Origin: Streptomyces sp. NBC_00457
GTDB taxonomy: Bacteria > Actinomycetota > Actinomycetes > Streptomycetales > Streptomycetaceae
DNA length: 64,000 nt
NCBI RefSeq assembly: GCF_036014015.1
Contig: NZ_CP107905.1
Coordinates: forward strand, 744,001-808,000
Reading direction: 5' to 3'
Part shown: positions 38,745 to 62,683 of the stretch, piece by piece
Position numbering within the stretch: position 1 is the stretch's first letter
Layout of the letters: every line of letters starts with the position of its first letter
The notes under the pieces: generated by a model
Told to the model about the DNA's origin: nothing
Databases searched by the model: none
Seen by the model: the letters and a program-made list of their open reading frames with translations, nothing else
Position numbers and translations under genes: made by a program

Positions 38745-38779
38745 CCACTGGCACGTACGCACTGAACGAAGGAGGGCCC

Positions 38780-40640: not shown

Positions 40641-40656
40641 GACTCTCCTTACCGAT

Positions 40657-40697: not shown

Positions 40698-40719
40698 GGT
40701 CCGTGAATGTGTGGCCTCG

Positions 40720-42228: not shown

Positions 42229-42259
42229 CTTGTCCCTCGCTGCGCGTGCCGAACTCCGT

Positions 42260-42586: not shown

Positions 42587-42636
42587 GACGGTCCTCCGTA
42601 CGCGATCGGATCACAGTGTTCGGGTCACAGGGGTGG

Positions 42637-43391: not shown

Positions 43392-43411
43392 AGGAGCCCC
43401 TTCAGATCAAC

Positions 43412-43466
43412 CTGATTCAAATTCAATTCAGTTTGGATGGTAATCCCGTGGAAACAGACCTGGCAA
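43412..43466 (-). promoter_or_regulatory. Promoter and operator for the NTF2/EthD/ligase operon
   Basis: On the minus strand, -35 TTGCCA (43466-43461), an 18-base spacer and -10 TACCAT (43442-43437) are followed at the expected start by two overlapping sites: TGATTCAAATTCA (43413-43425) and CAAACTGAATTGA (reverse of 43424-43436). These resemble the TGAACTGAATTCA family. A repressor bound here would block transcription. Confidence 0.6.
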
Positions 43467-43523
43467 TAGTGCGTCACGAAGCTTCCGCGGCGGTAGCGCG
43501 GCGTCGGAAGGGGGAACGACGAA

Positions 43524-43551
43524 GCCCCCTGACGGATGTCCGGCAGGGGGC
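43524..43551 (-). terminator. Hairpin after the TetR gene
   Basis: GCCCCCTG (43524-43531), 12-base loop, CAGGGGGC (43544-43551), located 33 bases after the TetR stop and before the next operon's promoter region. Confidence 0.6.
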
Positions 43552-43583
43552 AAGGAGGAGAGCGGGGCGGGCCGCTCAGGGCG

Positions 43584-44207
43584 TCACGTGGCGACCATCC
43601 GTACGCAGGCGCCCTCGATCAGTTCGCTGACCTCCGACAGCGGTGTCGGCCCCGACGGCCGGTACCACCGCCAGACGCTCACGATCAGGCCGAGCAAGCT
43701 CGAGCCCAGCAGTTGCGCGTCCCGCAGCGGGAACGCGCCCTGCGACATGCCCCGTACGAGAAGGTTGGTCCAGTCCCGCTCGACGAGTTGGACCAGCTGA
43801 CGGGCCGCGACGCGCTCGGCCTCCTCACGCTTGGACTTCCGGGCGCCGGAGAGCAGGTCCATGTGGTTCTGCAGGATGCGCATCTGCAGGACCTCCTGGT
43901 CGGAGACGTCGTACGCCGCGCGTACGGCCGCCCGCAGCGCCTCGACCGGGTCGGCGACGTCCGCGGTCGCCTCCGTGAACTTGTCGTGGGAGCGCTGGAG
44001 CTCCAGCCGCATGATGGTGAGCAGGCAGTGGGTCTTCGACTCGAAGTAGTGATACAGCGCCGTCTGCCCGATGCCGACCCGCTCCGCCACGGTGGACCAC
44101 TTGGTGGCCTCGAACCCTGTCTCGCCGAAGCAGTCGACGGCAGCCGCCAGAATGGCGGCACGCTTGGACCTCGGTCCCGCTTCCGGTTCAACGATCCTTG
44201 TCGCCAT
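43584..44207 (-). CDS. TetR family regulator, probable master repressor of the catabolic cluster
   Basis: The 207-residue protein starts MATRIVEPEAGPRSKRAAIL. Its DNA-binding domain at residues 14-60 includes KWSTVAERVGIGQTALYHYF. The C-terminal ligand domain has the pattern of actinobacterial acyl-CoA-responsive TetRs. A promoter (-35 TTGACC, -10 TGAGTT, spacer 17) at 44296-44268 overlaps a TGAACTCAGTTGC site, so it is probably autoregulated. Sites of the same sequence precede five other operons within 20 kb, which is why I propose it as the common repressor. The inducer is likely a CoA thioester, unproven. Confidence 0.88.
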   Translation of the reverse strand: MATRIVEPEAGPRSKRAAILAAAVDCFGETGFEATKWSTVAERVGIGQTALYHYFESKTHCLLTIMRLELQRSHDKFTEATADVADPVEALRAAVRAAYDVSDQEVLQMRILQNHMDLLSGARKSKREEAERVAARQLVQLVERDWTNLLVRGMSQGAFPLRDAQLLGSSLLGLIVSVWRWYRPSGPTPLSEVSELIEGACVRMVAT

Positions 44208-44265
44208 GACCTACCTGTCTCCTGGCTGCCGCCCACCTCGTAGGTACCCGAGAGTAGCCCCAAGC

Positions 44266-44296
44266 TGAACTCAGTTGCCAATCGACTTCAGGTCAA
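44266..44296 (-). promoter_or_regulatory. Promoter and operator of the TetR gene
   Basis: Minus-strand -35 TTGACC (44296-44291), 17-base spacer and -10 TGAGTT (44273-44268). The operator half-palindrome TGAACTCAGTTGC (44266-44278) overlaps the -10, matching the TGAACTGAATTCA family at 10 of 13 positions. Confidence 0.6.
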
Positions 44297-45459
44297 AGGC
44301 GCTCGAGCACCGTCGCATTGGCCATGCCACCGCCCTCGCACATCGTCTGCAGCCCATAGCGCGAGCCGGTCCTGCGCAGCTGGTGGACGAGCGTGGTCAT
44401 CAGCCGGGCGCCGGTGGCGCCGAGCGGATGTCCGAGCGCGATGGCGCCGCCGAAGGCGTTGACCCGTTCCTCGGCGGCGCCGATCTCCTTCTGCCAGGCC
44501 AGCACCACGGAGGCGAAGGCCTCGTTGATCTCGACCAGGTCGATCTCGTCGATCGACAGTCCGGCCCTGTCCAGGACCTTCTCGGTGGCGGGGATCGGGC
44601 CGGTCAGCATGTGGATCGGGTCGGAGCCGACCACGGCCATGGTGTGCACGCGTGCGAGCGGGGTCAGACCGTGGCGGCGTACCGCCTCCCCGGATGCGAT
44701 CAGCAGGGCGGCGGCACCGTCGGAGATCTGGCTGGCGACGGCGGCAGTCAGCCGGCCGTCCTCGGTGAGGGTCTTCAGTCCCGCCATCTTCTCGAGCGTG
44801 GTGTCGGCGCGCGGGCCCTCGTCGGCGGCGAGCCCGAACGCCGGGGTGATCTCGTCGTCGAAGACGCCGTCGGCCTGGGCGGCGAGGGCCCGCTGGTGGC
44901 TGGTGAGCGCGAACCGCTCCATGTCCGTACGGGAGATGCCCCACTTCTCGGCGATCAGCTCGGCCCCGCGGAACTGCGACACCTCCTGGTCCCCGAAGTG
45001 CTCGCGCCAGCCGTCCCCCGCAAACGGACTGCCCATGCCGGCCTGTTCGCCGACGAACATCGGGCTGGCGATGGGCACCAGGCTCATCACCTCCACACCA
45101 CCGGCGACCACCAGGTCGGCGGCGCCCGAGCCGACCGCCTGGGCGGCGAAGTGCACGGCCTGCTGGGAGGAGCCGCACTGGCGGTCGATGGTGGTGCCGG
45201 GAACGTGCTGCGGCAGTCCCGCCGACAGCCAGGCGGTGCGGGCGATGTTCCCGGTCTGTGCGCCGATCTGGCTGACGCACCCGAAGTACACGTCGTCGAC
45301 GGCGCCCGGGTCGGCGCCGGTGCGTTCCAGCAGGGCGCGCAGCACATGGGCGCCGAGGTCGGCGGGGTGCACGCCGCTCAGCGCGCCCTTGCGGCGGCCG
45401 ACGGGGGTGCGGACGGCTCCGACGATGAATGCTTCCGACACGGTGGGCAGGCTGGGCAC
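44293..45459 (-). CDS. Thiolase (acetyl-CoA C-acyltransferase)
   Basis: The protein of about 388 residues is a complete thiolase: nucleophile Cys95 (TIDRQCGSSQQA), NEAFASVV, GHPLGATGARL with the catalytic His, and CEGGGMANAT with the second Cys. It would release acetyl-CoA or propionyl-CoA at the end of beta-oxidation. GTG at 45459 is preferred because GGAG lies 6 bases upstream; an in-frame ATG at 45471 gives four more residues. It is the last gene of the ten-gene operon, 29 bases after the PaaG-like crotonase. Confidence 0.9.
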   Translation of the reverse strand: MPSLPTVSEAFIVGAVRTPVGRRKGALSGVHPADLGAHVLRALLERTGADPGAVDDVYFGCVSQIGAQTGNIARTAWLSAGLPQHVPGTTIDRQCGSSQQAVHFAAQAVGSGAADLVVAGGVEVMSLVPIASPMFVGEQAGMGSPFAGDGWREHFGDQEVSQFRGAELIAEKWGISRTDMERFALTSHQRALAAQADGVFDDEITPAFGLAADEGPRADTTLEKMAGLKTLTEDGRLTAAVASQISDGAAALLIASGEAVRRHGLTPLARVHTMAVVGSDPIHMLTGPIPATEKVLDRAGLSIDEIDLVEINEAFASVVLAWQKEIGAAEERVNAFGGAIALGHPLGATGARLMTTLVHQLRRTGSRYGLQTMCEGGGMANATVLERL

Positions 45460-45488
45460 GGTGGGCTCCATGGGTTTCGGGGACGGGA

Positions 45489-46292
45489 TCAGGTTCCGGA
45501 GATCCTGGGCGGTACGCGCGTGAAGTCCGGCGTCCGCTTGTCGAGGAAGGCGGCGACGCCCTCGCGGCCCGCGTCGGAGGCGGCCGCGGCGGCGAGCGCA
45601 CGTGCCTCGCGGTCCAGGTGCGGGCCCAGGTCCTCGGTCAGCCCGGAGGCGACGAGTCGGCGGGTGGTGCCGAGGGCGGCGGTGGGTCCGCGGCGCAGGG
45701 CCTCGGCCGTGCGCGCGGCCTCGGCGGCCAGTTGGTCGGTGGCGACGACCCGGCTCACCAGTCCGATCGCCGCGGCTTCCGCCGCCGGTATGCGGCGGTT
45801 GGTCAGCAGCAGATCCAGCGCTCGCTTGGGTCCGACGAGCCGGGGCAGGAACCAGCTGACTCCGGCGTCCGGTGAGTAACCGATACCGGTGTACGCGGCG
45901 GTGAACGAGGCGTTGTCGGCGGCGAGGGTGATGTCGGCGGCCGCGGCCAGGCCGATGCCCGCGCCGGCGACCGCGCCCCGCACGGCGGCCACCATCGGCG
46001 CGTCGATCGCGGCGAACGTACGCAGAGCCTCGTGCAGCGCGTCGGTCACCGCGGTGAGGTGCTTCTCCAGTGCCTCGCCGGAGAGCCGGGAGAACTCCCT
46101 GAGATCGCCGCCGACGCAGAAGGACTTCCCCTCGCCGGTGAGCAGCACGGCCCGTACGGTCCCGCGCTCGCAGGCTCGTGCCGCGTCGAGGAGTCCGTGC
46201 GCCATGTCGAGGCCGATGGCGTTGCCCGCCTCGCCCCGGCGCAGGGTGATGTGGGCCAGACCGTCGCCGTGGATGTCGATGCCGACGCTCAT
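45489..46292 (-). CDS. Crotonase-fold isomerase (PaaG-like)
   Basis: The 267-residue crotonase-fold protein matches the PaaG isomerase pattern rather than a hydratase: GAVAGAGIGLAAAADITLAA lacks the first catalytic Glu, and AAYTGIGYSPDAGVSWFLPR has an Asp in place of the second. PaaG-type enzymes isomerise enoyl-CoA or epoxy-CoA thioesters. Its start overlaps the SDR stop (ATGA), so it is coupled. It is followed by the thiolase gene. Confidence 0.87.
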   Translation of the reverse strand: MSVGIDIHGDGLAHITLRRGEAGNAIGLDMAHGLLDAARACERGTVRAVLLTGEGKSFCVGGDLREFSRLSGEALEKHLTAVTDALHEALRTFAAIDAPMVAAVRGAVAGAGIGLAAAADITLAADNASFTAAYTGIGYSPDAGVSWFLPRLVGPKRALDLLLTNRRIPAAEAAAIGLVSRVVATDQLAAEAARTAEALRRGPTAALGTTRRLVASGLTEDLGPHLDREARALAAAAASDAGREGVAAFLDKRTPDFTRVPPRISGT

Positions 46293-47062
46293 CGCGCCGT
46301 CCAGCCGCCGTCGACGGTCAGGACCTGCCCGGTGCAGTACGAGGAGGCGTCCGAGGCGAGGTACAGCAGCGCGCCGTCGAGTTCATGACCGTCGCCGCCG
46401 CGCCGCAGCAGGGTGTTGCGCTCGACCCAGCGGCTGGAGCGCTCGTCGCCGAAGAGGTCCGCGGTCATCTCGGTGCGGAACCAGCCCGGGGCGAGGGCGT
46501 TGACGCGGATGCCGCTCGCGCCCCACTGTCCGGCCAGCTCCCGGGTCAGCCCTATCAGTCCGGCCTTGGACGCCGAGTAGCTCGCGCCGCCGAGGGGGGC
46601 GGCGGTCACCAGGCCGAGGATGGAGGAGACGTTGATGATGCTCCTGCCGCCCGCTTGACCGGGCCCTTCGGCGATGAGCCGGGCGAGGTGAAAGGGAGCG
46701 GTGAGGTTGACGCCCAGGACGTCGGCGAAGGCGTCGGAGGACTCGTCCTCGGCGCGCGTCTCGCCGGACGTCGCCGCGTTGTTGACCAGGACGTCGATGC
46801 GGCCGGTGGCGGCCAGTGCCGTCTCCGTCAGCCGCGTACGGTCGGCTTCGAGCGATACGTCGCAGGCGACGGGGTGGATGCGCGCGTCGGAGTCGGCGAG
46901 TTCCTTCAGCCGGTCGATGCGGCGGGCGGCGGCGAACACGATGGCGCCGGCCTGCGCGAGGACGGCGGCGAAGCGGGCGCCGAGCCCGGCGGAAGCGCCG
47001 GTGACGATCGCTGTCCTGCCCTCCAGCGAGAAAAGCTCGGCGGCGGATCGCGGCGCGCTCAC
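46289..47062 (-). CDS. Short-chain dehydrogenase
   Basis: The 257-residue classical SDR has TGASAGLG, a NNAATSG loop, Ser in NVSSILG and YSASK. It is one of two SDRs in tandem that share 4-bp overlaps (GTGA) with each other and with the next genes, so translation is coupled. An Ala-Ala-Arg (FAAARRID) after strand 2 suggests NADP. The substrate, probably a hydroxyacyl-CoA or sterol-like alcohol, is not determined. Confidence 0.88.
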   Translation of the reverse strand: MSAPRSAAELFSLEGRTAIVTGASAGLGARFAAVLAQAGAIVFAAARRIDRLKELADSDARIHPVACDVSLEADRTRLTETALAATGRIDVLVNNAATSGETRAEDESSDAFADVLGVNLTAPFHLARLIAEGPGQAGGRSIINVSSILGLVTAAPLGGASYSASKAGLIGLTRELAGQWGASGIRVNALAPGWFRTEMTADLFGDERSSRWVERNTLLRRGGDGHELDGALLYLASDASSYCTGQVLTVDGGWTAR

Positions 47063-47831
47063 TCGTCCACCCCGATCGGCAGGGCGGTCGCGCCGCCGTC
47101 GAGCACCAGGGTCTGGCCGGTCATCCATGAGGAGGCGTCGGAGGCCAGGAACAGCGCCGCGTTCGCCACGTCCTCCACCGTGCCGAGGCGCCGCAGCGGC
47201 AGCTTGGCGGTGAGGATGGGCTCGCGCACCTCCCACACCGCCCGCGCCAGCTCCGTCTTGATCAGCCCGGGGGCGATGGCGTTCACCCGTGCCCGCGGCC
47301 CGAGTTCGTAGGCGAGCTGCCGGGTCATGTGCAGCATGGCGGCCTTGGTGGCGTTGTAGTAGCCGATGTGCGGATCGACGATCAGCCCGCCGACGGAGGC
47401 GATGTTGACCACCGCTCCCCCGTGCTCGGCCATCCAGGCCCGCCAGGCGTACCGGGTCCAGGCGATCATGCCGTACTGGTTGACGCGTACGGTCTTCTCG
47501 GCACGCGACACGTCCAGGTCGAGCAGATCGCCGTGGTACGGGTTGGTCGCCGCGTTGTTGACGAGGATGTCGACCCTGCCGAAGCGGATCATGGTCTCGT
47601 CGACGCAGGCCTCGGCCTGGTCGGGCTCACCGGCGTTGGCCACCACCGTGTGGACGTCGCCGTCGCCCTTCACCCGCAGCAACTCCTCGCGCGCCTCGGC
47701 GAGTCCGGCCGCCTTGCGGGCCGCGATCACCACGTGTGCTCCGGCCGCCCGGTAGGCGGTGGCGATGCCCAGGCCGATGCCGCGGGATCCGCCGGTGATG
47801 ACGGCGACCTTGCCCTCCAGGGTGTCGGTGC

Positions 47832-47835
<4 letters not shown>
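47059..47835 (-). CDS. Short-chain dehydrogenase
   Basis: The 258-residue classical SDR has TGGSRGIG, NNAATNP, the Ser in NIASVGG and YNATK motifs, with AARKA after the second strand (NADP-like). The GTG start overlaps the preceding ACAD stop as GTGA, and its own stop overlaps the next SDR's GTG. The two SDRs are divergent enough to act on different intermediates. Confidence 0.88.
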
Positions 47836-49076
<1,241 letters not shown>

Positions 49077-49122
49077 GATTGCTCCTGTCCGGGGGTGCCG
49101 GGGTTCGTGTGGTCGGTCCGGA

Positions 49123-50097
49123 TCAGCCGAGGATGTCGCGTGCCGTGCGGATCATCGCGGCGATGGTGGGCGGCAGTCGCTCCTGGTCCGGGTCGTGGTG
49201 CTTGCCCTCGCGGTGCCGGCGCAGGTTGTGGCCCATGATCGCGGCCATCTTCATGCGGCCGAGCGCCCGGAACCAGTCCATCGCGGGCAGCGCGGGCCGG
49301 CCGTCGAGGTAGGCGACCAGCAGTTCGGCCTCGGTGGGCAGGCCAGGTACGGCACGCCCCAGCTGGGGGAAGTTGCGGTGGTCGGCGAAGAGCAGGAACC
49401 AGCCGAGGTCGATGCGCGGGTCGCCGACGCTCCAGATCTCCCAGTCGACGACGGCCACTGCACGCTGGCCGGCGCACAGCACGTTGCCGAGCCGGAAGTC
49501 GCCGTGCAGCAGTACCGGTGGCAGGCCCCCGGGCACGTCGGCGGTGAGGCGAGCCAGCAACTCCTCTCCGCCCGGGCGGAGTTCTGCCGGTACGGCGTGC
49601 AGGGTGCGGGTCCACCGCTCCAACTCCCCGGCCGCATCGAGCGGTTCGGGCGGATCGAGCCCGGGTGTGTGGGTGTCGGTGGCGTGCAGTCGCCGCAGCA
49701 CGGCGGCGATCTCCAGCATTCGGGCGCGGGCCGTCGCGGCGGGCACCTCGGGCTCGTCGAGTACGGGCTCGACGGCCTCCCCGGCCGCGAAGTCCATGGC
49801 GAACCAGGCTGGTTGTGTCTCGTCGACCGCTGCGATGCCCGGCACGGGCACCGCGGACCCGGCCAGCGCGCCCAGCACCCGCGCCTGGCGCAGCACGTCG
49901 TTGCGGCCGACGGGCCGCTGCCCCGGAGGCACCGCCTTGATGACGTACCTGGCCTCCCCCGCGGTGACGGAGTACGTCAGCCCCGAATGGCCACCGGGCA
50001 ACACCCTCAACTCGCCGATCGGGGCGCCCGGATGGCGGCGGGCGAGCCGGTCCCGGACCCGGACGGCCAGCTCCGACGTTTGCGTGACCGTGCTCAT
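49123..50097 (-). CDS. APH-like phosphotransferase, ACAD10/11 kinase type
   Basis: The 324-residue kinase has LRVLPGGHSGLTYSVT, the catalytic HGDFRLGNVL and VVDWEIWSVGDPRIDLGW motifs. The conserved catalytic and metal Asp residues are all present. It overlaps the upstream ACAD stop as ATGA and precedes the ACAD11-like gene, so it likely phosphorylates a hydroxyacyl-CoA. Together with the pair at 36.5-38.7 kb it is the second such kinase in the window, and the two are only distantly similar. Confidence 0.88.
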   Translation of the reverse strand: MSTVTQTSELAVRVRDRLARRHPGAPIGELRVLPGGHSGLTYSVTAGEARYVIKAVPPGQRPVGRNDVLRQARVLGALAGSAVPVPGIAAVDETQPAWFAMDFAAGEAVEPVLDEPEVPAATARARMLEIAAVLRRLHATDTHTPGLDPPEPLDAAGELERWTRTLHAVPAELRPGGEELLARLTADVPGGLPPVLLHGDFRLGNVLCAGQRAVAVVDWEIWSVGDPRIDLGWFLLFADHRNFPQLGRAVPGLPTEAELLVAYLDGRPALPAMDWFRALGRMKMAAIMGHNLRRHREGKHHDPDQERLPPTIAAMIRTARDILG

Positions 50098-51326
50098 CGG
50101 GCGGGCTCCTTGGGCAGGCGGTCTTTGGGCGGGCCCTCTTTGGGCAGGCCGAGCACGCGTTCGGCGAGGATGTTGTGCTGGATCTCGTCGGTGCCGCCCG
50201 CGATGCTGTACCCGGGCGCGCCGAGCAGGTGCTCCGTCCAGGCGTACGTGCCCCATGCCCCCGTGTCCGCGACGAGGCTCGGCCCCAGCAGCTCGGACAC
50301 CAGATCGCTGGTGCGCCGCATGGTCTCGGTGGCGTAGAGCTTGCCGACCGAGGCTTCCGCCCCGGGCTCGCGTCCGGCCACGAGGGCGGCGGTCACGCGC
50401 AGTCCGACGATCCGCTGGACGAGGGTGCGGATGTGCAGATCGGCGGCCCGCTGCTGTTCGCTGCCGGTGAGCGGGCGGGGCAGGTTGCCGGCCAGTTCCA
50501 GCGCCCGGTCGGCGTTGTCCAGGCCGAGGTTGCCGGAGTCGAGCCGCTCGGCGGCCAGCACGCTGAGCGTGACCCGCCAGCCCCCGCCGACCGGCCCGAG
50601 CCGGTCCGTGTCGGGCACCACCACGCCGTCGAGGTAGACCTCGTTGAAGCTGGTGCCGCCGGTCATCTGCTGGATGGGCCGTACAGTCACGCCGGGCGCG
50701 TCCATGCGCACCAGGAAGACGGTGATACCGGCGTGCTTGCGTACGTCCGGATCGGTACGGCACACCGCGACGCCCCAGGTCGCGACGCGAGCCCCGGAGG
50801 TCCACACCTTGTGCCCGTTCAGCACCCAGTTGTCGCCGTCGCGCACCGCCCTGGTCCGCACCGCGGCGAGGTCGGATCCGGCCTCTGTCTCCGAGAACAG
50901 CTGGCAGGCCAGCTCGTCGGTGCGGAGCATGGGCCGCAGCCAGCGCTGCTTCTGCTCCTCGGTGCCCCAGATGCCGATCGCGGGGGCGACGAGCTGCTGC
51001 GTCACCGGGAAGACCTCGGTGCGGTGCGGCACGTCGAAGGCCGCCTCTTCGGTGCGGTAGAGCTGCTCGTAGTACGCGGGCAGGCCCCGGCCTCCGTACG
51101 CCTGCTGCCAGTTGAGCGCGCCCCAGCCGTGGTGGTAGCGGGTGCGTTCCCATTCCTGGATGCGGGCGGTGTACTCGTGTTCCTGTTCCTCGGTCCAGTT
51201 CTCGAAGACGGCGACGGAGTCGGAGCCGCTGCCCCACTCTCCGTCGGCGGCGCGCGGCCGGGCGACCGTGGCGAGCCACCGCCGGGCTTCGGCACGGAAC
51301 TCCTCGGGTTCCGGGATGGCGCTCAT
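50094..51326 (-). CDS. Acyl-CoA dehydrogenase, FadE26-like
   Basis: The protein of about 410 residues starts MSAIPEPEEFRAEARRWLAT and carries WEWERTRYHHG-type helices, LFSETEAGSDLAAVRTRAVR, WVLNGHKVWTSGARVATWG and a C-terminus YSIAGGTDEIQHNILAERVL. These are features of the FAD-binding subunit of the alpha2beta2 steroid and cholate-type dehydrogenases (FadE26 pattern). The missing glutamate at the GGT position suggests that the active-site base is elsewhere or supplied by a partner. ATG at 51326 is preceded by GGAGGTGGAGG. A possible partner subunit is the ACAD at 60392. Confidence 0.87.
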   Translation of the reverse strand: MSAIPEPEEFRAEARRWLATVARPRAADGEWGSGSDSVAVFENWTEEQEHEYTARIQEWERTRYHHGWGALNWQQAYGGRGLPAYYEQLYRTEEAAFDVPHRTEVFPVTQQLVAPAIGIWGTEEQKQRWLRPMLRTDELACQLFSETEAGSDLAAVRTRAVRDGDNWVLNGHKVWTSGARVATWGVAVCRTDPDVRKHAGITVFLVRMDAPGVTVRPIQQMTGGTSFNEVYLDGVVVPDTDRLGPVGGGWRVTLSVLAAERLDSGNLGLDNADRALELAGNLPRPLTGSEQQRAADLHIRTLVQRIVGLRVTAALVAGREPGAEASVGKLYATETMRRTSDLVSELLGPSLVADTGAWGTYAWTEHLLGAPGYSIAGGTDEIQHNILAERVLGLPKEGPPKDRLPKEPAR

Positions 51327-51344
51327 CTCGTCCTCCACCTCCAT

Positions 51345-52891: not shown

Positions 52892-52896
52892 CCGGA

Positions 52897-53685: not shown

Positions 53686-53701
53686 CTCTTCGCCTCCAGA
53701 T

Positions 53702-53748
53702 TGAACTGAATTCACTACGAGTCTGGGAGGCGGAAGATATCCTGTCAA
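53702..53748 (-). promoter_or_regulatory. Promoter and operator of the ten-gene catabolic operon
   Basis: Minus-strand -35 TTGACA (53748-53743), spacer 17, -10 CAGACT (53725-53720), then the palindrome TGAACTGAATTCA (53702-53714) just after the predicted start. It differs only at its centre from the site at 61641. Repression by blocking initiation is expected. Confidence 0.65.
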
Positions 53749-53830
53749 CCCTCTGATCGAGACGGATTCATCAGGTGAAGGGATCCTGCGATCCAAGCAA
53801 GAGAGATCCCGTCATTGATCGAACCGAACC

Positions 53831-53876
53831 TGATTCAAACTCACTCTTGAGGAGCATACCTACTTCGGTTCAATAT
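53831..53876 (+). promoter_or_regulatory. Promoter and operator for the 3-hydroxyacyl-CoA dehydrogenase gene
   Basis: TGATTCAAACTCA (53831-53843, 12 of 13 identical to the site at 43413) sits just before -35 TTGAGG (53847-53852), spacer 18, -10 CAATAT (53871-53876). The -10 region is part of a 13-bp motif shared with 62616-62628. Confidence 0.55.
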
Positions 53877-53925
53877 GACGGAGGGGTCCTCCCCCTCCCA
53901 ACGACTGCACCCCGGAAGGACCTTC

Positions 53926-54789: not shown

Positions 54790-54832
54790 ACCCTCCGCAC
54801 CCCGGTGAGGGCCGGGGACCGGCGTGCGTCGA

Positions 54833-54848
54833 GGCCGTCGTGACGGCC
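54833..54848. terminator. Short GC hairpin between convergent genes
   Basis: GGCCGTC-GT-GACGGCC (54833-54848) lies 44 bases after the dehydrogenase stop and before the GMC gene's stop at 54925. The tight 2-base nominal loop would open to 4, leaving six pairs. No other feature is visible in this gap. Confidence 0.35.
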
Positions 54849-54924
54849 AGGCGCCCGCCGTCCCCCTGCCCGCAACCGCGCGTTCTGGTTCGGGAAGACC
54901 GGCAGGCACCTGTGCCGCGGTCGG

Positions 54925-56454
54925 TCAGGCGTTCCGGCGCAGTTCGTCCGCGCAGCGCTCGGCCATCATCAGCACGGTGGTGTTGGTCGGCGTGGCCGGG
55001 ATGTCCGGCATGATCGAGGCGTCGACGACGTACAGCCCGTCGAGGCCGTGCACCTTGCCGCTCTGGTCGACCACGGCGTTCGGGGTGCCCTCGCCACCCA
55101 TCGCGCAGGTGCCCACGGCGTGGCAGTAGGTGTTCTTGCCCTGCAGGACGGCGCGGGTCAGGTCGGCGTCCGTGGTCGCCTCGGGTCCGGGCCACTGCTC
55201 CGCGCGTACGTACTTCTCCAGTGGGCCGGAGCCCATGATCTCCCGCATCTGGCGGATGCCGGCCACCATGCGCCGCAGGTCGTCGGGGTGGTCCAGCAGG
55301 CCGAGCCGGATCGACGGGTCGGCATCAGGGTCGCGTGAGGTGATCTCCACCCTGCCCAGCGAGTACGGGCGGACCACAGCGAGGGGCACCAGCATCACCC
55401 CTGGCTCCATGGTGAACGGCAGTGCGTGCAGGTCGACTTCACCCTGGCTGCCTGCCCCTGCCGAGGAGAACGCCAGGGCGGTCTGCAAGGGGGGCATGAG
55501 TTCGCCGACCGTCGCCTCGTCCACGGCGTAGGTGAGGTACACCATGGGGTGGTCGCGGAGGTTCCTGCCGACGCCTTCGAGGCACTGGGTCGTGGGGATG
55601 GACAGCCTGTCGAGCAGCCGCCGCGGGCCGATGCCGGAGCGCATCAGGATCGCCGGGCTGCCGATGGCTCCGGCCGACAGGACGACCAGGTCGGCTTCGA
55701 GCGCGGTGCCGTCGGCGAGGATCACGGCGCGGGCCGTCCCGTCCTCGGTGAACTCCACGCGGTCGACGGTCTGTCCGCCGAGCACGGTCAGGTTGTCGCG
55801 TCCGCGGGCCGGTCCGAGGTAGGCGAGGGCCGAGCTCTGGCGGATGCCGTCCTTGCGGTTGAAGGGGACCGGGCCCGCGCCGCGCCGGCCGGCGCCGTTC
55901 ATGTCCTGGTGAATGGTGTGGCCGGCCTGGGCGCAGGCCTCCAGGAAGGCGGACATGACCGGGCGCAGCCCGTTTCCCTCGGTGAAGCGTTCGATGTGTA
56001 CGGGGCCTTCGGTGCCGTGCAGTTCCCCGCCGACCGGGTCGTCCTCCAGCTTCTTCAGATACGGAAGGACCTCGTCCCAGGACCAGCGGTCGTTGCCGAG
56101 TCCGGTCCAGCGGGCGAAGTCCTCGGGGGTGGGCCGCAGGGCGTTGGCACCGTTGACGGACGAGGAGCCGCCGATGACCTTGCCGCGCAGGACGGGCACG
56201 ACGCCCTGCTCGACGATCCCGAACATCGGGATGCTGTCGCCCTCGACGACGTGATCGGCCGACTCGTAGCCCCAGTCATGGGTGGTGAACCCGAACTGGT
56301 CGGCGTCGAGCACCTCGGGTGCGGTCTCCTGCGCGGTGCGGTAGTCGGGACCCGCCTCGACCAGCGTGACAGTGTTCGCGGGATCCTCGCTCAGCCGTGC
56401 GGCCAGCACTCCACCGGCGGAACCTCCGCCACACACCACTATGCGACGCGCCAT
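54925..56454 (-). CDS. GMC-family FAD-dependent oxidoreductase (choline/alcohol dehydrogenase-like)
   Basis: The 509-residue flavoprotein has the N-terminal FAD loop VCGGGSAGGVLAARLSED, the GMC signature SSSVNGANALRPTPEDF, SAGAIGSPAILMRSG and the C-terminal active-site region NTYCHAVGTCAMGGEGTPN with DIPATPTNTTVLMM. It should oxidise an alcohol to an aldehyde. It starts MARRIVVCGG and is 87 bases downstream of the aldehyde dehydrogenase on the same strand, suggesting a two-step alcohol-to-acid conversion. Confidence 0.9.
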   Translation of the reverse strand: MARRIVVCGGGSAGGVLAARLSEDPANTVTLVEAGPDYRTAQETAPEVLDADQFGFTTHDWGYESADHVVEGDSIPMFGIVEQGVVPVLRGKVIGGSSSVNGANALRPTPEDFARWTGLGNDRWSWDEVLPYLKKLEDDPVGGELHGTEGPVHIERFTEGNGLRPVMSAFLEACAQAGHTIHQDMNGAGRRGAGPVPFNRKDGIRQSSALAYLGPARGRDNLTVLGGQTVDRVEFTEDGTARAVILADGTALEADLVVLSAGAIGSPAILMRSGIGPRRLLDRLSIPTTQCLEGVGRNLRDHPMVYLTYAVDEATVGELMPPLQTALAFSSAGAGSQGEVDLHALPFTMEPGVMLVPLAVVRPYSLGRVEITSRDPDADPSIRLGLLDHPDDLRRMVAGIRQMREIMGSGPLEKYVRAEQWPGPEATTDADLTRAVLQGKNTYCHAVGTCAMGGEGTPNAVVDQSGKVHGLDGLYVVDASIMPDIPATPTNTTVLMMAERCADELRRNA

Positions 56455-56541
56455 GGTTGCCTCTCTTCTCTTCTTTGAGACGAAGGGTTCGGAAGGAACG
56501 GGTTCGTGAAAGAGCGGGTTCGTGAGGGAGCAGGCGGTCTT

Positions 56542-57999
56542 TCAGCCGTTCAGGGGCGCGCCCGACAAGGCGATCGACTTGGGTTCGAGGTAGTCGTCGA
56601 GGCCTTCGGGGCCGTTCTCGCGGCCGATGCCCGACTTCTTGCTGCCGCCGAAGGGGGCGTTGATGTCGAGGGTGTAGCTGTTGATGCTGAACGTTCCGGT
56701 GCGTACGCGGCGGGCGATCCGGAGGGCGGCGTCCTCGTCCTGGGTCCAGACCGTTCCGGAGAGCCCGTACGGGGAGTCGTTGGCCAGCTCGACGGCATGG
56801 TCGGGACCGTCGTGCGGGATGGCGACGACGACCGGGCCGAAGATCTCCTCCTGTGCGATCCGCATGTCGTTCGTGACGTCGGTGAAGAGGGTGGGCTCGA
56901 GGTACCAGCCGGTCGTCAGGCCCTCGGGTCGGCCACCGCCGCAGGCGACGGTGGCGCCCTCCTTCCTGCCGAGGGCGATGTACTCCTCGACGCGCGCCCG
57001 GTGCGCCTCGGTGATCAGCGGTCCGATCACGGTCGCGGGGTCGGCCGGGTCACCGATGGGCAGGGTGCTCATGTGGCGGGCCAGGGCCTCGGTGAACTCC
57101 TCGTAGCGGGCGCGCGGCAGCAGGATGCGGGTCTGGGCGGTGCAGATCTCGCCCTGCATGAAGGCGGCGCCGCAGCCGACGAGAGCAGGGACGACGGTGT
57201 CGATGTCGGCGTCGTCAAGGACGATCGCCGCCGACTTGCCGCCGAGTTCCAGCGTCGTACGGCGGATGTCGCGGCCGCATACTTCGGCGATGCGGGCGCC
57301 GATCGCCGTACTGCCCGTGAAGCTGACCTTGTCCACACCGGGGTGGGCGACCAGGTACTCGCTCTCCGCGACATCGGCGGCGAACAGGCTGATGACGCCC
57401 TCGGGCACCTCCGATTCGGCGACGACATCGGCGAACACATGGCAGGCGAGCGGGTCCTGCACGGGCGCCTTGACGACGACCGTGCAGCCGGCCATGAGGG
57501 CGGCGGCGATCTTCTGGGCGGTCAGCGTGAGTGGGCCGTTCCAGGCGGGGATGGCCACGACGACGCCGACGGGCTCGCGCACGATGAGGGTGCGGGTCGG
57601 TCCGTTGACCCGCTCCTCCTCGAAGACGAACTCCTCGGCCAACGAGGCGTAGAAACGCAGGTAGTGGGAGGGAGCGACGGCGAAGTAGCCCTCGGCGAAG
57701 CCGCGCGGGCTGCCGGTCTCGGCCATCGCCAGCTCGGCCAGTTCCGCCGCCCGCGTGTCCAGGCGGTCGGCGAGGTCGCGCAGGGCCGCGGCGCGCCGGC
57801 TCACGGTCCAGCTCGGCCAGGGGCCGGCGTCGAAGGCCTGCCGGGCCGAGGCGACGGCGGCGTCGATGTCCTCTGTGGAGGCCAGCGGGACGTGGCCTAT
57901 GACCTCCTCGGTGCTGGGTGAGACGACCTGCGCGACGCGGTCGGTGGAGGGGGCGGTGAGCCGTCCTCCGATGAGGATGCGGTCGTAGTGGTGTGCCAT
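56542..57999 (-). CDS. Aldehyde dehydrogenase
   Basis: The 485-residue NAD(P)-dependent dehydrogenase has IPAWNGPLTLTAQKIA, ELGGKSAAIVLDDADIDTVV and the nucleophile Cys286 in GEICTAQTRIL. The N-terminus MAHHYDRILIGGRLTAPSTD is well placed at 57999. It precedes the GMC oxidoreductase gene on the same strand and probably oxidises that enzyme's aldehyde product to the carboxylic acid for CoA activation. Confidence 0.92.
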   Translation of the reverse strand: MAHHYDRILIGGRLTAPSTDRVAQVVSPSTEEVIGHVPLASTEDIDAAVASARQAFDAGPWPSWTVSRRAAALRDLADRLDTRAAELAELAMAETGSPRGFAEGYFAVAPSHYLRFYASLAEEFVFEEERVNGPTRTLIVREPVGVVVAIPAWNGPLTLTAQKIAAALMAGCTVVVKAPVQDPLACHVFADVVAESEVPEGVISLFAADVAESEYLVAHPGVDKVSFTGSTAIGARIAEVCGRDIRRTTLELGGKSAAIVLDDADIDTVVPALVGCGAAFMQGEICTAQTRILLPRARYEEFTEALARHMSTLPIGDPADPATVIGPLITEAHRARVEEYIALGRKEGATVACGGGRPEGLTTGWYLEPTLFTDVTNDMRIAQEEIFGPVVVAIPHDGPDHAVELANDSPYGLSGTVWTQDEDAALRIARRVRTGTFSINSYTLDINAPFGGSKKSGIGRENGPEGLDDYLEPKSIALSGAPLNG

Positions 58000-58380
58000 G
58001 AGGTGACTGCCTCTCTGCGGAAACACTGCGCGGAAGGTGCGGGGCGGAGGGTGCGGGGCGGAGGGTGCGGGGCAGGAGATGCAGGCTCGGTTTCCGGTCG
58101 CACGGCCGGCCGCAAGGCATCGCGCCGAGTGCACACGGTCGGAAGGGAGCGGAGGCCCGCCGGCCGGCCCCCGCGGTGCACGCCATCCGGTCTCCGGCGT
58201 CGTGAGGGCGTGGGCCGGCCCCCGGGCGGGGCGCCCCGGGTCGGCCCGGGGACGGATTCCTCACCCACGGCCGGACCGTCGCCCACGGTGCGCTGCGTCG
58301 CGGTGCCGGAGCCGGGCCCGGGCCAGGTCCTGCTACACCGGCCTCACCCGGCGGGGTGGCCGGCGCGTCGGGCCGGTTCG
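58000..58380. other. 381-bp non-coding gap with short tandem repeats and a GC hairpin
   Basis: This contains three 14-bp repeats GA(A/G)GGTGCGGGGCG at 58033, 58047 and 58061, the upstream region of the aldehyde dehydrogenase, and a very self-complementary GC tract around 58212-58253 (GGGCGGGGCGCCCCGGG) that may terminate the OYE transcript. No TGAACTGAATTCA site or convincing gene was seen. The open frames across it look like GC artefacts. Confidence 0.5.
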
Positions 58381-60327
58381 TCACAGCGGCCTCGCGGCGA
58401 CGGCCTCCGCGGCCGCGCGCCCCTCCGCGACCGCGTGCGCGATACGGCGCGGCACGACGCAGTCGCCGACCGCGCGGACCGTCTGGTGGGGGCCCGGGGT
58501 GAAGTGAGGGCGGCGCGGGCGGCGTTCGCCGACGGTGACCAGGACATCGGCGGTGAGATGTGTCTCCTGACCGTCCAGGACATGGCGCAGGCGTACACCC
58601 TCGGTGGTTGTCGAGGTCACGGTGCTCATCGCGACGACGCGCAAGGGCGCGCCGGTGAGCCGGTTCATCAACTGGGTGCGGTTCTCCGGCGAAAGACCCG
58701 TCGCGAACCCGGTGCCGGGGGTGATGACGGTGACCTCCCGGGCACCGGCCGCCAGCGCGCTCTCGACGGCGCTGATGCCCTGCCACCAGCCGAAGCCGTC
58801 GTCGAGGACGACGACGGCTGCCGCGTCGGGGACGACATCCGCATACCGGTGCAGGAACTCCGTGCTTGTGAGGGTCGGCAGCTCGCCCGGCACGGCGACG
58901 GACGCTTCCTCGGCGCCGGTGGCGAGCACGACCTGGGAGTACGCCGCCAGATAGTCCTCACCCAGGGAGGTACCGAGCGACACGCGCACCCCGAGGTCGG
59001 TGAGCTGGTCGCGCTGGTAGTCGACGAACTTCTGCCAGCCGGAGCGGTGCGGGGCGAGGGAGGCGAGGCGGGCCTGTCCGCCCGTGTGCCCGGCCGTGTC
59101 GAAGACGATCACCTCGGCGCCGGACCGGGCGAGGGCCATCGCGCACTCCATGCCGGCGGGGCCCGCCCCCACAACGGCGACGGGGCGGTTCCGGCTGCCC
59201 GGCCGGGTGAGCAGCAGCGGTACGGCCGGGCGGGTGGCCACTCCCGGCGGGCCCAGCTCGGGGTTCACCGCGCACGACCCCGTGGGCTCGAAGGTCCGGC
59301 AGCCCTCGTTGCAGCCCGTGCAGGGGCGTACGGATCGCTCGTCGCCTGCGATCACTTTGCGGGCGAAGTCCGGGTCGGCGATGAACGGCCGGGCCATGCC
59401 GACCAGATCGGCCCCGGAGTCCAGCGCGCGCTCGATGTCGGCGACCGTCCGGAAGCTCTGGCTGACCAGGAGTGGCAGTGCGACGGCCGGGCGGAGCCGG
59501 GCCACGGAGTCCAGCAGCGGTGGGCGGGTGGTGGCCATGCCGGGGACGTATGTGTTGCGGACACCGGTGGTGACGTTGACGTACGCGAACGGCGAGGCGG
59601 CGCACAGACGCGGAAGCAGCTCGGTCAGGTCGTCCAGGCCGAGTCCTGAGTCCTCGCCGGGCTCCACCGACACCCGTACGCCGATGGGGAGTTCACCGAT
59701 CTCGGTACGGATCGCGTCAATCACCTGGGCGAGCAGGGCGATCCGGTCGCCGTACTCGTCGTCGCGGGTGTTGTTGACCCGGGACAGGAACTGGGCGAGC
59801 AGATAGCCGTGGCCGGCATGCAGTTCCACGCCGTGAAAGCCGGCCTGCACGCTGTTCGCCGCCGAGATGCGGAAGGCGTCGACGACGCCGCGTACCTCTT
59901 CGGTGCTCAGCGGATGGGGCGCGGTCGCCTCGCGGGGCGAGCGGACGGCCGCGGCGGAGACCGGCGCGTAGTAGGTGCCGGCGCCCAGGGTCTCCCGGCC
60001 GAGGTGGACGAGCTGCGCGACGGCCACGGCTCCCCCGTCGGTGATGGCCTCGGCGCGGCGGCGCACGGCGTCCTTGATCTCGGGGCGCCACGCTTCGGTC
60101 AGATAGCGCTGCGGCAGAGTCGACTCGGAGGCCACGGCGGTACCTCCGGTGATCACCATCCCGGCGCCGCCCTGGGCCAGCCGTCTCCAGTAGGCCGCGT
60201 CGGTTTCGGTGGGGGCACCGTCGGCGACGGCTGCGGTGGCGTGGGCGGTGGCGACAAGACGGTTGCGGAGGGTGAGACCGCCGAGCGTGAAAGGCGCGGC
60301 GAGGGCGGGCGCGGTGCGTGACGTCAT
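58381..60327 (-). CDS. Old-yellow-enzyme-type flavoprotein, 2,4-dienoyl-CoA reductase-like
   Basis: The 648-residue protein joins an N-terminal OYE FMN barrel (FTLGGLTLRNRLVATAHATA; HAGHGYLLAQFLSRVNNTRD) with a 4Fe-4S cluster region CTGCNEGCRTFEPTGSC and a C-terminal FAD/NAD(P)-binding half (VAVVGAGPAGMECAMALARS). This matches the FadH/trimethylamine dehydrogenase layout that reduces 2,4-dienoyl-CoA or oxidises amines. Its context favours reduction of a conjugated acyl-CoA. It is downstream of an ACAD gene by 64 bases on the same strand. ATG at 60327. Confidence 0.92.
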   Translation of the reverse strand: MTSRTAPALAAPFTLGGLTLRNRLVATAHATAAVADGAPTETDAAYWRRLAQGGAGMVITGGTAVASESTLPQRYLTEAWRPEIKDAVRRRAEAITDGGAVAVAQLVHLGRETLGAGTYYAPVSAAAVRSPREATAPHPLSTEEVRGVVDAFRISAANSVQAGFHGVELHAGHGYLLAQFLSRVNNTRDDEYGDRIALLAQVIDAIRTEIGELPIGVRVSVEPGEDSGLGLDDLTELLPRLCAASPFAYVNVTTGVRNTYVPGMATTRPPLLDSVARLRPAVALPLLVSQSFRTVADIERALDSGADLVGMARPFIADPDFARKVIAGDERSVRPCTGCNEGCRTFEPTGSCAVNPELGPPGVATRPAVPLLLTRPGSRNRPVAVVGAGPAGMECAMALARSGAEVIVFDTAGHTGGQARLASLAPHRSGWQKFVDYQRDQLTDLGVRVSLGTSLGEDYLAAYSQVVLATGAEEASVAVPGELPTLTSTEFLHRYADVVPDAAAVVVLDDGFGWWQGISAVESALAAGAREVTVITPGTGFATGLSPENRTQLMNRLTGAPLRVVAMSTVTSTTTEGVRLRHVLDGQETHLTADVLVTVGERRPRRPHFTPGPHQTVRAVGDCVVPRRIAHAVAEGRAAAEAVAARPL

Positions 60328-60338
60328 GCGGCTCTCTT

Positions 60339-60378
60339 CGTCTGCTCTGACTGCCTGTCGTCTGCTCTGACTGCCTGC
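60339..60378. repeat. Two tandem 20-bp repeats in the ACAD/OYE intergenic gap
   Basis: CGTCTGCTCTGACTGCCTG(T/C) occurs at 60339-60358 and 60359-60378, adjacent and identical but for the last base. It lies between the ACAD stop at 60392 and the OYE start at 60327. Confidence 0.8.
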
Positions 60379-60391
60379 TCTCTTTGCCTGT

Positions 60392-61564
60392 TCAGGCGGC
60401 GGACCGTGTGGAGAGACCGATGAGTTCGGCGAGTCGGGTCCGATGCCGGTCCGCGGTGCCGAACAGCACCTCGCTGCCGCGTGCGCGGCGTACGTACAGA
60501 TGCGCCGGGTGCTCCCAGGTGAAGCCGATGCCGCCGTGCAGTTGGACGTACTCGGCCGTCGCCAGCCGGAAGGCCTCGGAGCAGACCACGGCGGCGGCGC
60601 TCGCTGCCACCGGCAGTTGCGGCGAGCCGACGGCGGCGCAGGCACTCGCGTACGCGGACGCCGAGCGCGCCGCCTCCAGCGCGACCAGTACATCGGCCAG
60701 CCGGTGCTTGACGGCCTGGAAGGAACCGATGGGGCGCCCGAACTGGTGGCGCTGTGCGGTGAATTCGACCGTGGCGTCCAGCGCGTGCCCGCTGCCGCCG
60801 ACCTGTTCGGCCCCCAGCGCGGCCCGCCCGATGTCGAGGGTCGCCGAGACCGTGTCGCCGGTGACTTCCGCCGTGCCGACGGCATCGGCCGGTGCTCCTC
60901 GGAACTCCACCAGTGCCTGGCGGCGCGTCTCGTCCAGGACGCGGTGCGCGGTCCGCGAGCAGGTGTCCGGGGTCGGTTCGCACGCGAACAGCCGGGCGCC
61001 GGCGGGCGTTTGGGCCCGTACCAGGATGAGGTCCGCTCCGGCCCCGTCGAGCACGAAGTCCGCCTGACCGCGCAGCACCCAGCCGGAGCCACCCTGCTCG
61101 GCGGTGACGGCGGGGTCGCCGGGCTCGTCGGGCTCTCCGGACTCTCCGGCGTCGAATCCGGCCACGGTCGCGGTGAGCGTGCCGTCCGCGATCCGCGGCA
61201 GGTAGCGCTCGCATGCGTCCCGGTCGCCGCTGTGCAGCAGGGCGTGGGCGGCGAGGGCCACCGTGGGCAACAGGGGCGCGCAGTACAGGGCGCGCCCGGC
61301 TTCCTCCAGGGCCACGGCCAGTTCGGCGAACGTGAAGCCCGACCCGCCGTACTCCTCCGGCACGGCCAGTCCGTGGACACCGATCTCGCCGGCGAGTCGT
61401 GTCCAGAGCACTTCGTCGTATCCACGCGGGGTGGCCAGATGCTTGCGGACGTCCTCGGGACCGCTCGCCTCCGTGTAGAAGTCCCGCAGAACGGTGCGGA
61501 GTTGCCGCTGTTCGTCGGTTTCGGACAGCAGCTGGGGGTCGATCTCGGGGTGGCGAGGGCGCAT
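60392..61564 (-). CDS. Acyl-CoA dehydrogenase, FadE27/FadE29-like subunit
   Basis: The 390-residue protein starts MRPRHPEIDPQLLSETDEQR and ends with the pattern LHGGIGFTWEHPAHLYVRRA typical of the smaller or non-FAD-contributing subunit of actinobacterial steroid-type alpha2beta2 dehydrogenases. The FAD-binding segment is degenerate. It may pair with the FadE26-like gene at 50094. It is the first gene of an operon with the OYE flavoprotein, and a TGAACTCAATTCA site lies 77-89 bases upstream. Confidence 0.87.
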   Translation of the reverse strand: MRPRHPEIDPQLLSETDEQRQLRTVLRDFYTEASGPEDVRKHLATPRGYDEVLWTRLAGEIGVHGLAVPEEYGGSGFTFAELAVALEEAGRALYCAPLLPTVALAAHALLHSGDRDACERYLPRIADGTLTATVAGFDAGESGEPDEPGDPAVTAEQGGSGWVLRGQADFVLDGAGADLILVRAQTPAGARLFACEPTPDTCSRTAHRVLDETRRQALVEFRGAPADAVGTAEVTGDTVSATLDIGRAALGAEQVGGSGHALDATVEFTAQRHQFGRPIGSFQAVKHRLADVLVALEAARSASAYASACAAVGSPQLPVAASAAAVVCSEAFRLATAEYVQLHGGIGFTWEHPAHLYVRRARGSEVLFGTADRHRTRLAELIGLSTRSAA

Positions 61565-61640
61565 GGGGTCTCCATCGTGCTCGTGTGCTGGAGAACGGCA
61601 TCAAGACAGGAACTCTGAGCCAACACTATGAACTAAGAAC

Positions 61641-61653
61641 TGAACTCAATTCA
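61641..61653. promoter_or_regulatory. TGAACTCAATTCA operator upstream of the ACAD/OYE operon
   Basis: TGAACTCAATTCA (61641-61653) is identical to the site at 53702 except for the central base. On the minus strand it lies inside a region that includes TTGAGT and TAGTGT, 15-16 bases apart, a possible -35/-10 pair. It probably controls the ACAD gene starting at 61564. Confidence 0.6.
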
Positions 61654-61762
61654 TGAACATAGGCACCGCCGTCCGGACCGGGCAAGACCCGTGCACGTGT
61701 CGATTCGGGCCCCGTCGGTTTCCCGACAACGCGGGACGGACCGGAAACCGCTCAGACAGTGA

Positions 61763-62563
61763 TCAGGCAGTGAACCGGCCGCCGTTGGCGAGCAGCACCG
61801 CGCCGACCAGGTTCGCCGCGGCATCACTGGCCAGGAAGAGTGCGATGTCGGCGATCTCCTCGGGTGTCGCGTACGGGCGCACCCGCGGGTCGGTGAATCC
61901 GGCACGCAGCGCCTCCGGGGTGCGCGCCGCCATCCCTGTCTCCGTCGGTCCCGGAGCCACCACGTTCACGCGGATCCCGGACGCGATGGCCTCCTTGGCC
62001 ACGGCCTGACTCAGGGCGTGCACACCCGCCTTGGAGGCGGCGTAATGGGGGTAGCCGACCGGGGTGTCGAAGGCCGACGACGAGCCGATCACCACGATCG
62101 CTCCGGCCCCGAAGGGCCGCATGGCCCGCACGCCGGCGCGCAGCACATGGAAGGTACCGTCCAGGTTCACCCGCATGACGCGCCGCCAGGACGCGTCGTC
62201 GAGGGAATCGGTCACTTCGACCGGCCGCCCCTCGACCACCGCGTCCGCGATGCGCCGCTTGGCCTCGGGGTCGTCGACGCCGGCCGCGTGCACCAGGACG
62301 TCGAGCTGCCCGTACCAGCTAAGTACGTCCTGGACGGCGCCGTCGACGCCCGCCGCGTCCGCCACGTCGAGGGTGACCGGCCGCGCGACGGGCAGTTCCT
62401 TGGCGACGGCCGCGGCGCCGTCGCCGTTCACATCCGCCAGGACGACGGCCCGTGCCCCTTCCGCGGACAACTGCCGGGCAACCGCCGCGCCCATGCCGGA
62501 GCCGGCGCCCGTCACCATCGCGACCTTGCCCGCGAACCTGTCCGCCTGACCGACTCCGCGCAT
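61763..62563 (-). CDS. Short-chain dehydrogenase
   Basis: The 266-residue SDR has TGAGSGMG, VHAAGVDDPEAKRRIADAV replacing the canonical NNAG with an inserted segment, Ser in VIGSSSA and YAASK. DVNGD after the second strand favours NAD. ATG at 62563 is preferred over the GTG at 62575 that abuts AAGGAG. It is divergent from the zinc alcohol dehydrogenase and shares its upstream operator-like site. Confidence 0.87.
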   Translation of the reverse strand: MRGVGQADRFAGKVAMVTGAGSGMGAAVARQLSAEGARAVVLADVNGDGAAAVAKELPVARPVTLDVADAAGVDGAVQDVLSWYGQLDVLVHAAGVDDPEAKRRIADAVVEGRPVEVTDSLDDASWRRVMRVNLDGTFHVLRAGVRAMRPFGAGAIVVIGSSSAFDTPVGYPHYAASKAGVHALSQAVAKEAIASGIRVNVVAPGPTETGMAARTPEALRAGFTDPRVRPYATPEEIADIALFLASDAAANLVGAVLLANGGRFTA

Positions 62564-62615
62564 CAAACCGATCACTCCTTCACTGAACGCCGCACATGAA
62601 CTTCACCGCACGCCG

Positions 62616-62633
62616 CATATTGAACCGACTTCA
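62616..62633. promoter_or_regulatory. Operator-like site between divergent SDR and alcohol dehydrogenase genes
   Basis: TGAACCGACTTCA (62621-62633) matches TGAACTGAATTCA at 11 of 13 positions. Overlapping it, CATATTGAACCGA (62616-62628) is the exact reverse complement of the -10 motif at 53865-53877. It probably serves both divergent genes. Confidence 0.55.
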
Positions 62634-62683
62634 CCTCTGTTACCGTGGCGGCCACGGGGCTGACAAGACGTGGGACGGTGAAG

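Follow-up and report, generated by a model that had tools for sequence, protein, structure and literature searches.

The window, a stretch of 64,000 nucleotides comprising bases 744001-808000 of the single-contig 10.8-Mb genome (70.5% G+C) of Streptomyces sp. NBC_00457, holds a catabolic gene cluster in which a gene for a TetR-family regulator lies among transcription units preceded by variants of one palindromic sequence. An earlier note on this DNA had described that sequence as a 13-bp operator shared by six units and had taken the TetR protein to be their common repressor. The six stretches are present where they had been placed. The 13-bp unit has been replaced by an 18-bp palindrome, TGAACTGAATTCAGTTCA, derived from overlapping 13-mers spaced 5 bases apart in 66 loci carrying this TetR, many relatives having 13-mers offset in this way. 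Scores given below are those of a symmetrised matrix built from these 66 TetR-chosen loci. The sequence was read beyond the window as 120 kb surrounding it (L080), and positions past 64,000 are given in window numbering. The elements on which the argument rests are the following.

43584-44207, minus strand: TetR-family regulator with the Pfam domains TetR_N and TetR_C_24, proposed repressor of the regulon
43413-43430 and 43418-43435: operator in two overlapping 18-bp registers before the NTF2/EthD/ligase/metallo-beta-lactamase (MBL) unit, scores 25.0 and 24.3
44261-44278 and 44278-44295: weak operator pair before the TetR gene, scores 14.7 and 17.9
53702-53719: operator of the ten-gene operon, 15 of 18 positions matching the palindrome, score 24.2
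53820-53837: doubtful candidate operator of the 3-hydroxyacyl-CoA dehydrogenase gene, score 16.7
61636-61653: operator of the unit encoding an acyl-CoA dehydrogenase (ACAD) and an old yellow enzyme-like (OYE) flavoprotein, score 28.5, the highest in the region
62621-62638: operator between the divergent short-chain dehydrogenase/reductase (SDR) and alcohol dehydrogenase (ADH) genes, score 16.9
65628, 65797, 71442 and 71582, past the window: sites before an ATP-binding cassette (ABC) transporter operon, a major facilitator superfamily (MFS) transporter and a flavoprotein dehydrogenase
53743-53748, minus strand: -35 hexamer TTGACA of the ten-gene operon promoter, identified by comparison
53720-53725, minus strand: -10-like hexamer CAGACT, next to the operator, with a 17-nt spacer to the -35

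Four of the six sites originally listed are good ones and that of the TetR gene is weak. The site assigned to the 3-hydroxyacyl-CoA dehydrogenase gene had been set in the wrong register: 53831 scores 10.0, and neither of the better candidates, at 53820 and 53855 (13.8), is convincing.

The sites are confined to the cluster. At a matrix score of at least 16.5, the stretch 43000-72000 contains 13 positions, where 100 shuffles averaged 0.01 with a maximum of 1. The remaining 91 kb of the 120 kb contains none, the best position there, 22598, scoring 14.4; all sites at this threshold fall between 43413 and 71582. The regulon runs on past the window, with sites as far as 71582. With the pattern TGAACTSAATTCA, up to 3 mismatches being allowed and a palindrome possibly counting once per strand, the window gave 17 matches against 3.85 expected, a number that none of 100 shuffles reached. 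Genome-wide, places were counted by mismatches to the 18-mer (at most 3) and not by the matrix. Exactly three were found in the 10.8 Mb, at 53702, 61636 and 71442, all in the cluster and no more than 18 kb apart, and none with the control. The sites at 43413, 44261, 53820 and 62621 have more than 3 mismatches and are outside this count, as would be any weaker sites elsewhere in the genome. Chance frequency across the genome had been named in advance as the outcome that would speak against the operator, and the result depends on the form of the motif: the short TGAAYTNARTTCA with at most 1 mismatch is unspecific, since 3 of its 6 places in the genome lie outside the cluster and its reversed control has 3 as well. 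Were the similar 13-mers chance occurrences or A+T-rich promoter elements, such a count would be expected of the short motif. The 18-mer is palindromic, cluster-confined genome-wide and found with the TetR in other genomes, and it sits beside the -35 and -10 hexamers, not in them, so that this explanation is barely tenable.

In the promoter region of the ten-gene operon the order is TTGACA (53748-53743), CAGACT (53725-53720), operator (53719-53702), a GGAGG ribosome-binding sequence and the start codon at 53685. The TTGxxx/-10 pairs reported previously did not stand out in a generic promoter scan of 43300-62750 (1 promoter-like site against 0.6 expected), whereas the promoter of the ten-gene operon is conserved. 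Among 62 usable upstream regions, the window and the Rhodococcus locus L085 (see below) included, 61 have a match to TTGACA (5 or 6 of 6) 18-41 bases before the site, and in 55 a -10-like hexamer, mostly CAGACT or CAGAAT, follows the -35 at a distance of 16-18 nt and adjoins the operator, immediately so in 48. Of 60 usable cases, 59 have a site scoring at least 20 before the ortholog of the operon, and in 55 of these it ends 10-28 bases 5' of the start codon. Because the operator abuts the -10, the expected transcription start falls inside it, and a bound dimer should therefore block initiation. For the NTF2 unit, 43 of 59 loci have a site no more than 200 bases upstream of the ortholog and 9 more have one further up; it is absent in L069, and 6 loci were not resolved.

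This placement bears on the direction of control. Some TetR-family proteins activate, FasR for instance being a named activator in the NCBIfam list, and the -10 hexamer of the ten-gene operon (CAGACT/CAGAAT) is far from consensus, as might be expected if the TetR bound these sites to activate, or acted both ways. Since the operator abuts the -10 and would cover +1, a fit to blocking, we consider activation or dual action very unlikely. That the earlier note had spoken of a repressor agrees with the operator lying at the expected +1, from which we infer repression by this TetR bound to its operator.

The linkage of operator and TetR was examined across genomes. A search with the TetR protein gave 72 loci, of which 66 (L007-L072), from named actinomycete genera and one Streptomyces bin, were kept. 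The other six (L073-L078), five of which come from other phyla and one from an actinomycete bin, are 26-42% identical; they were dropped from the counts, and none of them contains the 13-mer within 1 mismatch. A site scoring at least 20 is present in every one of the 66 loci, and none of the 183 sites at this threshold falls within a gene mapped from the cluster. With at most 3 mismatches the 18-mer gave 76 matches (4, 36 and 36 with 1, 2 and 3 mismatches) and its complemented control none; at 4 mismatches there were 83 against 3. Individual sites are conserved likewise: the operator of the ACAD/OYE unit (61636) has an equivalent position in genomes G096 and G055 and precedes an ACAD-containing unit in G011, and that between SDR and ADH (62621) is unchanged in G096 and G055 and has a similar counterpart in G011 and stronger variants in G022 and G079.

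Within the genus, the TetR (E up to 1e-40) occurs in 6 of 121 genomes, its own included, and the 18-mer in 20. Each of the six TetR genomes has between 2 and 4 places, which add up to 17; 15 of these lie no more than 28 kb from the TetR. Among the 115 genomes without it, 101 lack the 18-mer, 14 have a single place and none has more; the genomes with at least two places are therefore exactly the six that encode the TetR. Among 296 genomes at class level, the same 6 gave matches both to the first enzyme of the ten-gene operon (E up to 1e-75) and to the TetR (E up to 1e-35). The regulator's own promoter also appears to carry an operator: in 64 of the 66 loci the stretch before the TetR start reaches a score of at least 12, against about 4% of random 220-bp stretches.

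Loci chosen through an enzyme, and not through the TetR or the motif, gave the same picture. The enoyl-CoA hydratase at 52897-53685, used as query, found five plasmid records, of which three were read. Sites scoring at least 18 were counted in L085, one of these records, and in four class-level loci found through the same enzyme, to which G336, the sixth class-level genome, was not added: 11 in L085, 8 in G274, 7 in G165, 5 in G394 and 9 in G330. Shuffles (20 each) averaged 0-0.25 sites, with none in those of G274, G165, G394 and G330. No exact 60-mer of L085, G165, G394 or G330 recurs in the 66 matrix loci, and one of G274 does. L085 is a Rhodococcus qingshengii plasmid (NZ_CP089607.1), and its 11 sites lie within 33 kb, all between annotated genes. 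A TetR ortholog of 54% identity is present, and in the stretch from 7.5 to 40 kb that holds all 11 sites it is the only annotated regulator, the annotation being incomplete.

A different protein could nevertheless bind the palindrome. Two further TetR genes, 35575-36444 and 73031-73687, lie at the edges of the cluster, the latter beside the 71442 and 71582 sites and with the same C-terminal domain, TetR_C_24 (111.8 bits); relatives of TetR 73031 are found within 10 kb of the TetR ortholog in 13 of the 66 loci and may lie farther away elsewhere, as TetR 73031 itself does from TetR 43584-44207. The single similar palindromes in 14 of the 115 TetR-less genomes would fit another regulator as well. 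Against this, TetR 73031 occurs in 3 of the 121 genomes and in only 2 of the 6 with multiple sites, G110 having the protein and no site; TetR 35575 has relatives near the TetR in 2 of the 66 ortholog loci; and in the Rhodococcus locus the TetR ortholog is the sole regulator annotated in the 33 kb with sites. Both candidates were rejected as common regulator on these counts (2/66 loci for one, 2/6 multi-site genomes for the other), and we regard binding by another regulator as unlikely. The assignment of TetR 43584-44207 as shared regulator is borne out by the six TetR genomes with at least two sites against none of the 115 others, by the 66 of 66 loci with a strong site, by the enzyme-chosen loci, by the recognition helix described below and by the mostly weak site before its own gene. 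An inverted repeat, TGGCTAATGCTCAGTAGCCA, lies at 36461-36480 between TetR 35575-36444 and the divergent unit 36496-39538, which encodes an ACAD, an aminoglycoside phosphotransferase-type (APH) kinase and an SDR. It contains no 18-mer and is perhaps the operator of this second TetR.

Several observations weigh against TetR 43584-44207 as common repressor of the cluster. Single matches occur in 14 of the 115 TetR-less genomes, whereas the reversed control is found in 1 of these 115; palindromes of this type are thus not restricted to genomes with the TetR. The reversed control itself had one place each in 3 of the 121 genomes, two with and one without the TetR. The matrix was trained on the 66 TetR-chosen loci, which makes the scores there partly circular. 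Several of the same-genus genomes are plainly of the same species as some of the 66, the fetched pieces of G011, G022, G055, G079 and G096 sharing thousands of 60-mers with them, and the two tests thus overlap. Upstream of the TetR gene the score is low in the window and in the majority of loci, reaching 16 in 18 of the 66 and 20 in 9; a weak own site would suit a repressor that needs to keep itself expressed. The site of the 3-hydroxyacyl-CoA dehydrogenase gene is weak too and poorly conserved, its region being only partly preserved among 6 aligned relatives, and in the matrix scan the glucose-methanol-choline oxidoreductase (GMC) gene, the aldehyde dehydrogenase (ALDH) gene and the 36496-39538 unit had no site of their own. 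Finally, DarR, a cyclic-nucleotide binder according to PDB titles, is about as near to the TetR in fold as the acyl-CoA sensors named below. As regards the TetR-less genomes, near-perfect palindromes such as TGGACTGAATTCAGTCCA and TGATCTGAACTCAGATCA are present singly in G014, G023, G049 and G117, where they are perhaps operators of related regulators.

The protein encoded at 43584-44207 has the features of a TetR-family regulator. Its helix-turn-helix matches TetR_N (PF00440) with 50.3 bits (cut-off 24) and its C-terminal part TetR_C_24 (PF17932) with 54.8 bits (cut-off 26.4); the predicted structure consists of ten helices and no strand, with an all-helical C-terminal domain (predicted local distance difference test score, pLDDT, 92.9). 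The nearest orthologs in named genomes are from Streptomyces, two being 100% identical over residues 1-207. No relative was found in phage records at E 1e-30. In 20 aligned orthologs with 52-93% identity to the window's protein, P12-R16, K36-W37, V44-Q48 and A50-K58 are invariant, which includes the recognition helix (VGIGQ-ALYHYFESK) except for residue 49, the one that varies. Fold comparison was by Foldseek and a Z-ranked search, and the neighbours are named from among the matches listed. These place the predicted fold near PfmR, AibR with isovaleryl-CoA, KstR2 and FadR, an unnamed Rhodococcus protein (3him) being the top match by Z.

Sequence comparison shows the operator and where it lies, that it is conserved and that it is linked to this TetR. 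We regard it as highly probable that TetR 43584-44207 is a local autoregulated repressor that acts through the 18-bp operator and is probably released by a CoA-thioester. The dimer would bind TGAACTGAATTCAGTTCA and its variants over the transcription start of the ten-gene operon and close to those of the other units, and would thereby block initiation. After uptake, the substrate would be activated by the acyl-CoA ligase, and a CoA-thioester intermediate of the pathway would probably bind the TetR and release it from the DNA, so that every unit is induced at once; with each unit counted as an operon, this would make up to 28 genes. Such a regulon would extend over some 33 kb (39600-73021) and specify a beta-oxidation-like pathway with ABC and MFS transporters. 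A CoA-thioester is the likely inducer because the regulon holds its own acyl-CoA ligase and several of the fold neighbours sense acyl-CoA. For AibR and FadR this is taken from PDB titles. KstR2 also senses acyl-CoA.

Local TetR repressors that control a catabolic cluster through a palindromic operator are a known type of arrangement. KstR2, the TetR-family repressor of the late cholesterol/HIP pathway in mycobacteria, has only about 51 bits to the window's TetR by sequence and governs a different enzyme set; its operator, AnCAAGnnCTTGnT, differs from the 18-mer. The KstR equivalog model of NCBIfam (NF033703) gave 41.5 bits against a cut-off of 280. Among proteins of solved structure, PfmR of Thermus thermophilus (3vpr) comes closest in sequence (66 bits), and it is the top Foldseek match among those listed (31% identity), the similarity being one-way. 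Its operator and genes differ from those described here, and Thermus is not an actinomycete. AibR (5k7z) and Bacillus FadR (3whb, 3whc) have the same fold at about 16-22% identity, with isovaleryl-CoA and stearoyl-CoA as ligands in the PDB titles. The AibR and FadR regulons differ from that of the window.

The genes preceded by the sites, and those continuing the units, are as follows.

43011-43391, minus strand: NTF2-like protein, SnoaL_2 (Pfam)
42637-43014, minus strand: small protein of the NTF2 unit, no Pfam match
40720-43391, minus strand: unit with EthD protein and acyl-CoA ligase (AMP-binding, Pfam; ligase 40720-42228)
39600-40700: MBL hydrolase, Lactamase_B, continuation of the NTF2/EthD/ligase unit
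44293-53685, minus strand: ten-gene operon
53875-54789, plus strand: 3-hydroxyacyl-CoA dehydrogenase, 3HCDH_N and 3HCDH, NF005875 above cut-off
60392-61564, minus strand: ACAD, Acyl-CoA_dh domains
58381-60324, minus strand: OYE/2,4-dienoyl-CoA reductase-like flavoprotein, Oxidored_FMN and Pyr_redox_2, best PDB match 2,4-dienoyl-CoA reductase
61763-62575, minus strand: SDR, divergent from the ADH gene
62645-63724, plus strand: zinc ADH, divergent from the SDR gene
65831-73021, window numbering: ABC transporter operon, MFS transporter and FAD_binding_2 flavoprotein, with operators before each

The ten-gene operon encodes an enoyl-CoA hydratase, a ChsH2-like protein with an oligonucleotide/oligosaccharide-binding (OB) fold, an SCP2-type thiolase, an ACAD, an APH kinase, a second ACAD, two SDRs, a second enoyl-CoA hydratase and a thiolase. 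Each of these genes is found near the TetR in between 32 (thiolase 44293) and 61 of the 66 loci. Of the enzymes scanned, only this thiolase (44293-45471; NF005865, TIGR01930) and the dehydrogenase at 53875-54789 (NF005875) passed curated NCBIfam cut-offs; both carry generic names, which point to no substrate. PDB sequence matches of four enzymes gave enzyme classes only, and the ACAD at 60392-61564 stayed below the cut-off of the IpdE2 model (205 against 450). The flavoprotein past the window is related to fumarate reductase and ketosteroid dehydrogenase.

Judged from these gene families, the pathway is a beta-oxidation-like one, perhaps for a cyclic or branched acid. The acyl-CoA dehydrogenases, the SCP2-type thiolase with its ChsH2-like partner, the ene-reductase and the flavoprotein suggest that this acid is terpenoid- or steroid-like. 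Two APH-type kinase genes, at 36496-38744 and 49123-51344, each lie beside an ACAD gene. Kinase and dehydrogenase pairs of the LvaA/LvaC and ACAD11 types act on 4-hydroxyacyl-CoA by kinase-assisted dehydration, and the two neighbouring pairs recall them. A wider reading, which we put forward tentatively and would not yet back as a whole, is that the TetR and its 18-bp operator mark a regulon not described before, spread horizontally among actinomycetes and serving a new acid-degrading pathway. This would act on a cyclic or branched terpenoid- or steroid-like acid by kinase-assisted hydroxyacyl-CoA dehydration and aldol-type side-chain cleavage and would be induced by one of its own CoA-thioesters.

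A regulator, its operator and a gene list can now be put forward for a catabolic cluster found in 12 or more actinomycete genera: Streptomyces, Lentzea, Kibdelosporangium, Saccharothrix, Nonomuraea, Sphaerisporangium, Actinoplanes, Pseudonocardia, Prauserella, Amycolatopsis, Nocardioides and Rhodococcus (on plasmids). The operator also sets the boundary of the pathway, to include the two transporters and the flavoprotein outside the window, and the promoter of the ten-gene operon offers a ready reporter for the substrate, as a compound that relieves repression.

Among the plasmids, those of Novosphingobium and Terrarubrum have 0 and 1 site, and no good TetR ortholog was seen there; the operator therefore seems to belong to the actinomycete version of the cluster. 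Both of these alphaproteobacterial plasmids (L086 and L087) carry part of the enzyme set, with a hydratase of 54.6-55.5% identity, an ACAD and a kinase, and EthD and ligase genes are also present in the Novosphingobium plasmid. A further plasmid, NZ_CP014942.1 of Rhodococcus sp. BH4, was matched by both the hydratase and the TetR, and the cluster on the R. qingshengii plasmid also holds several genes for solute-binding proteins.

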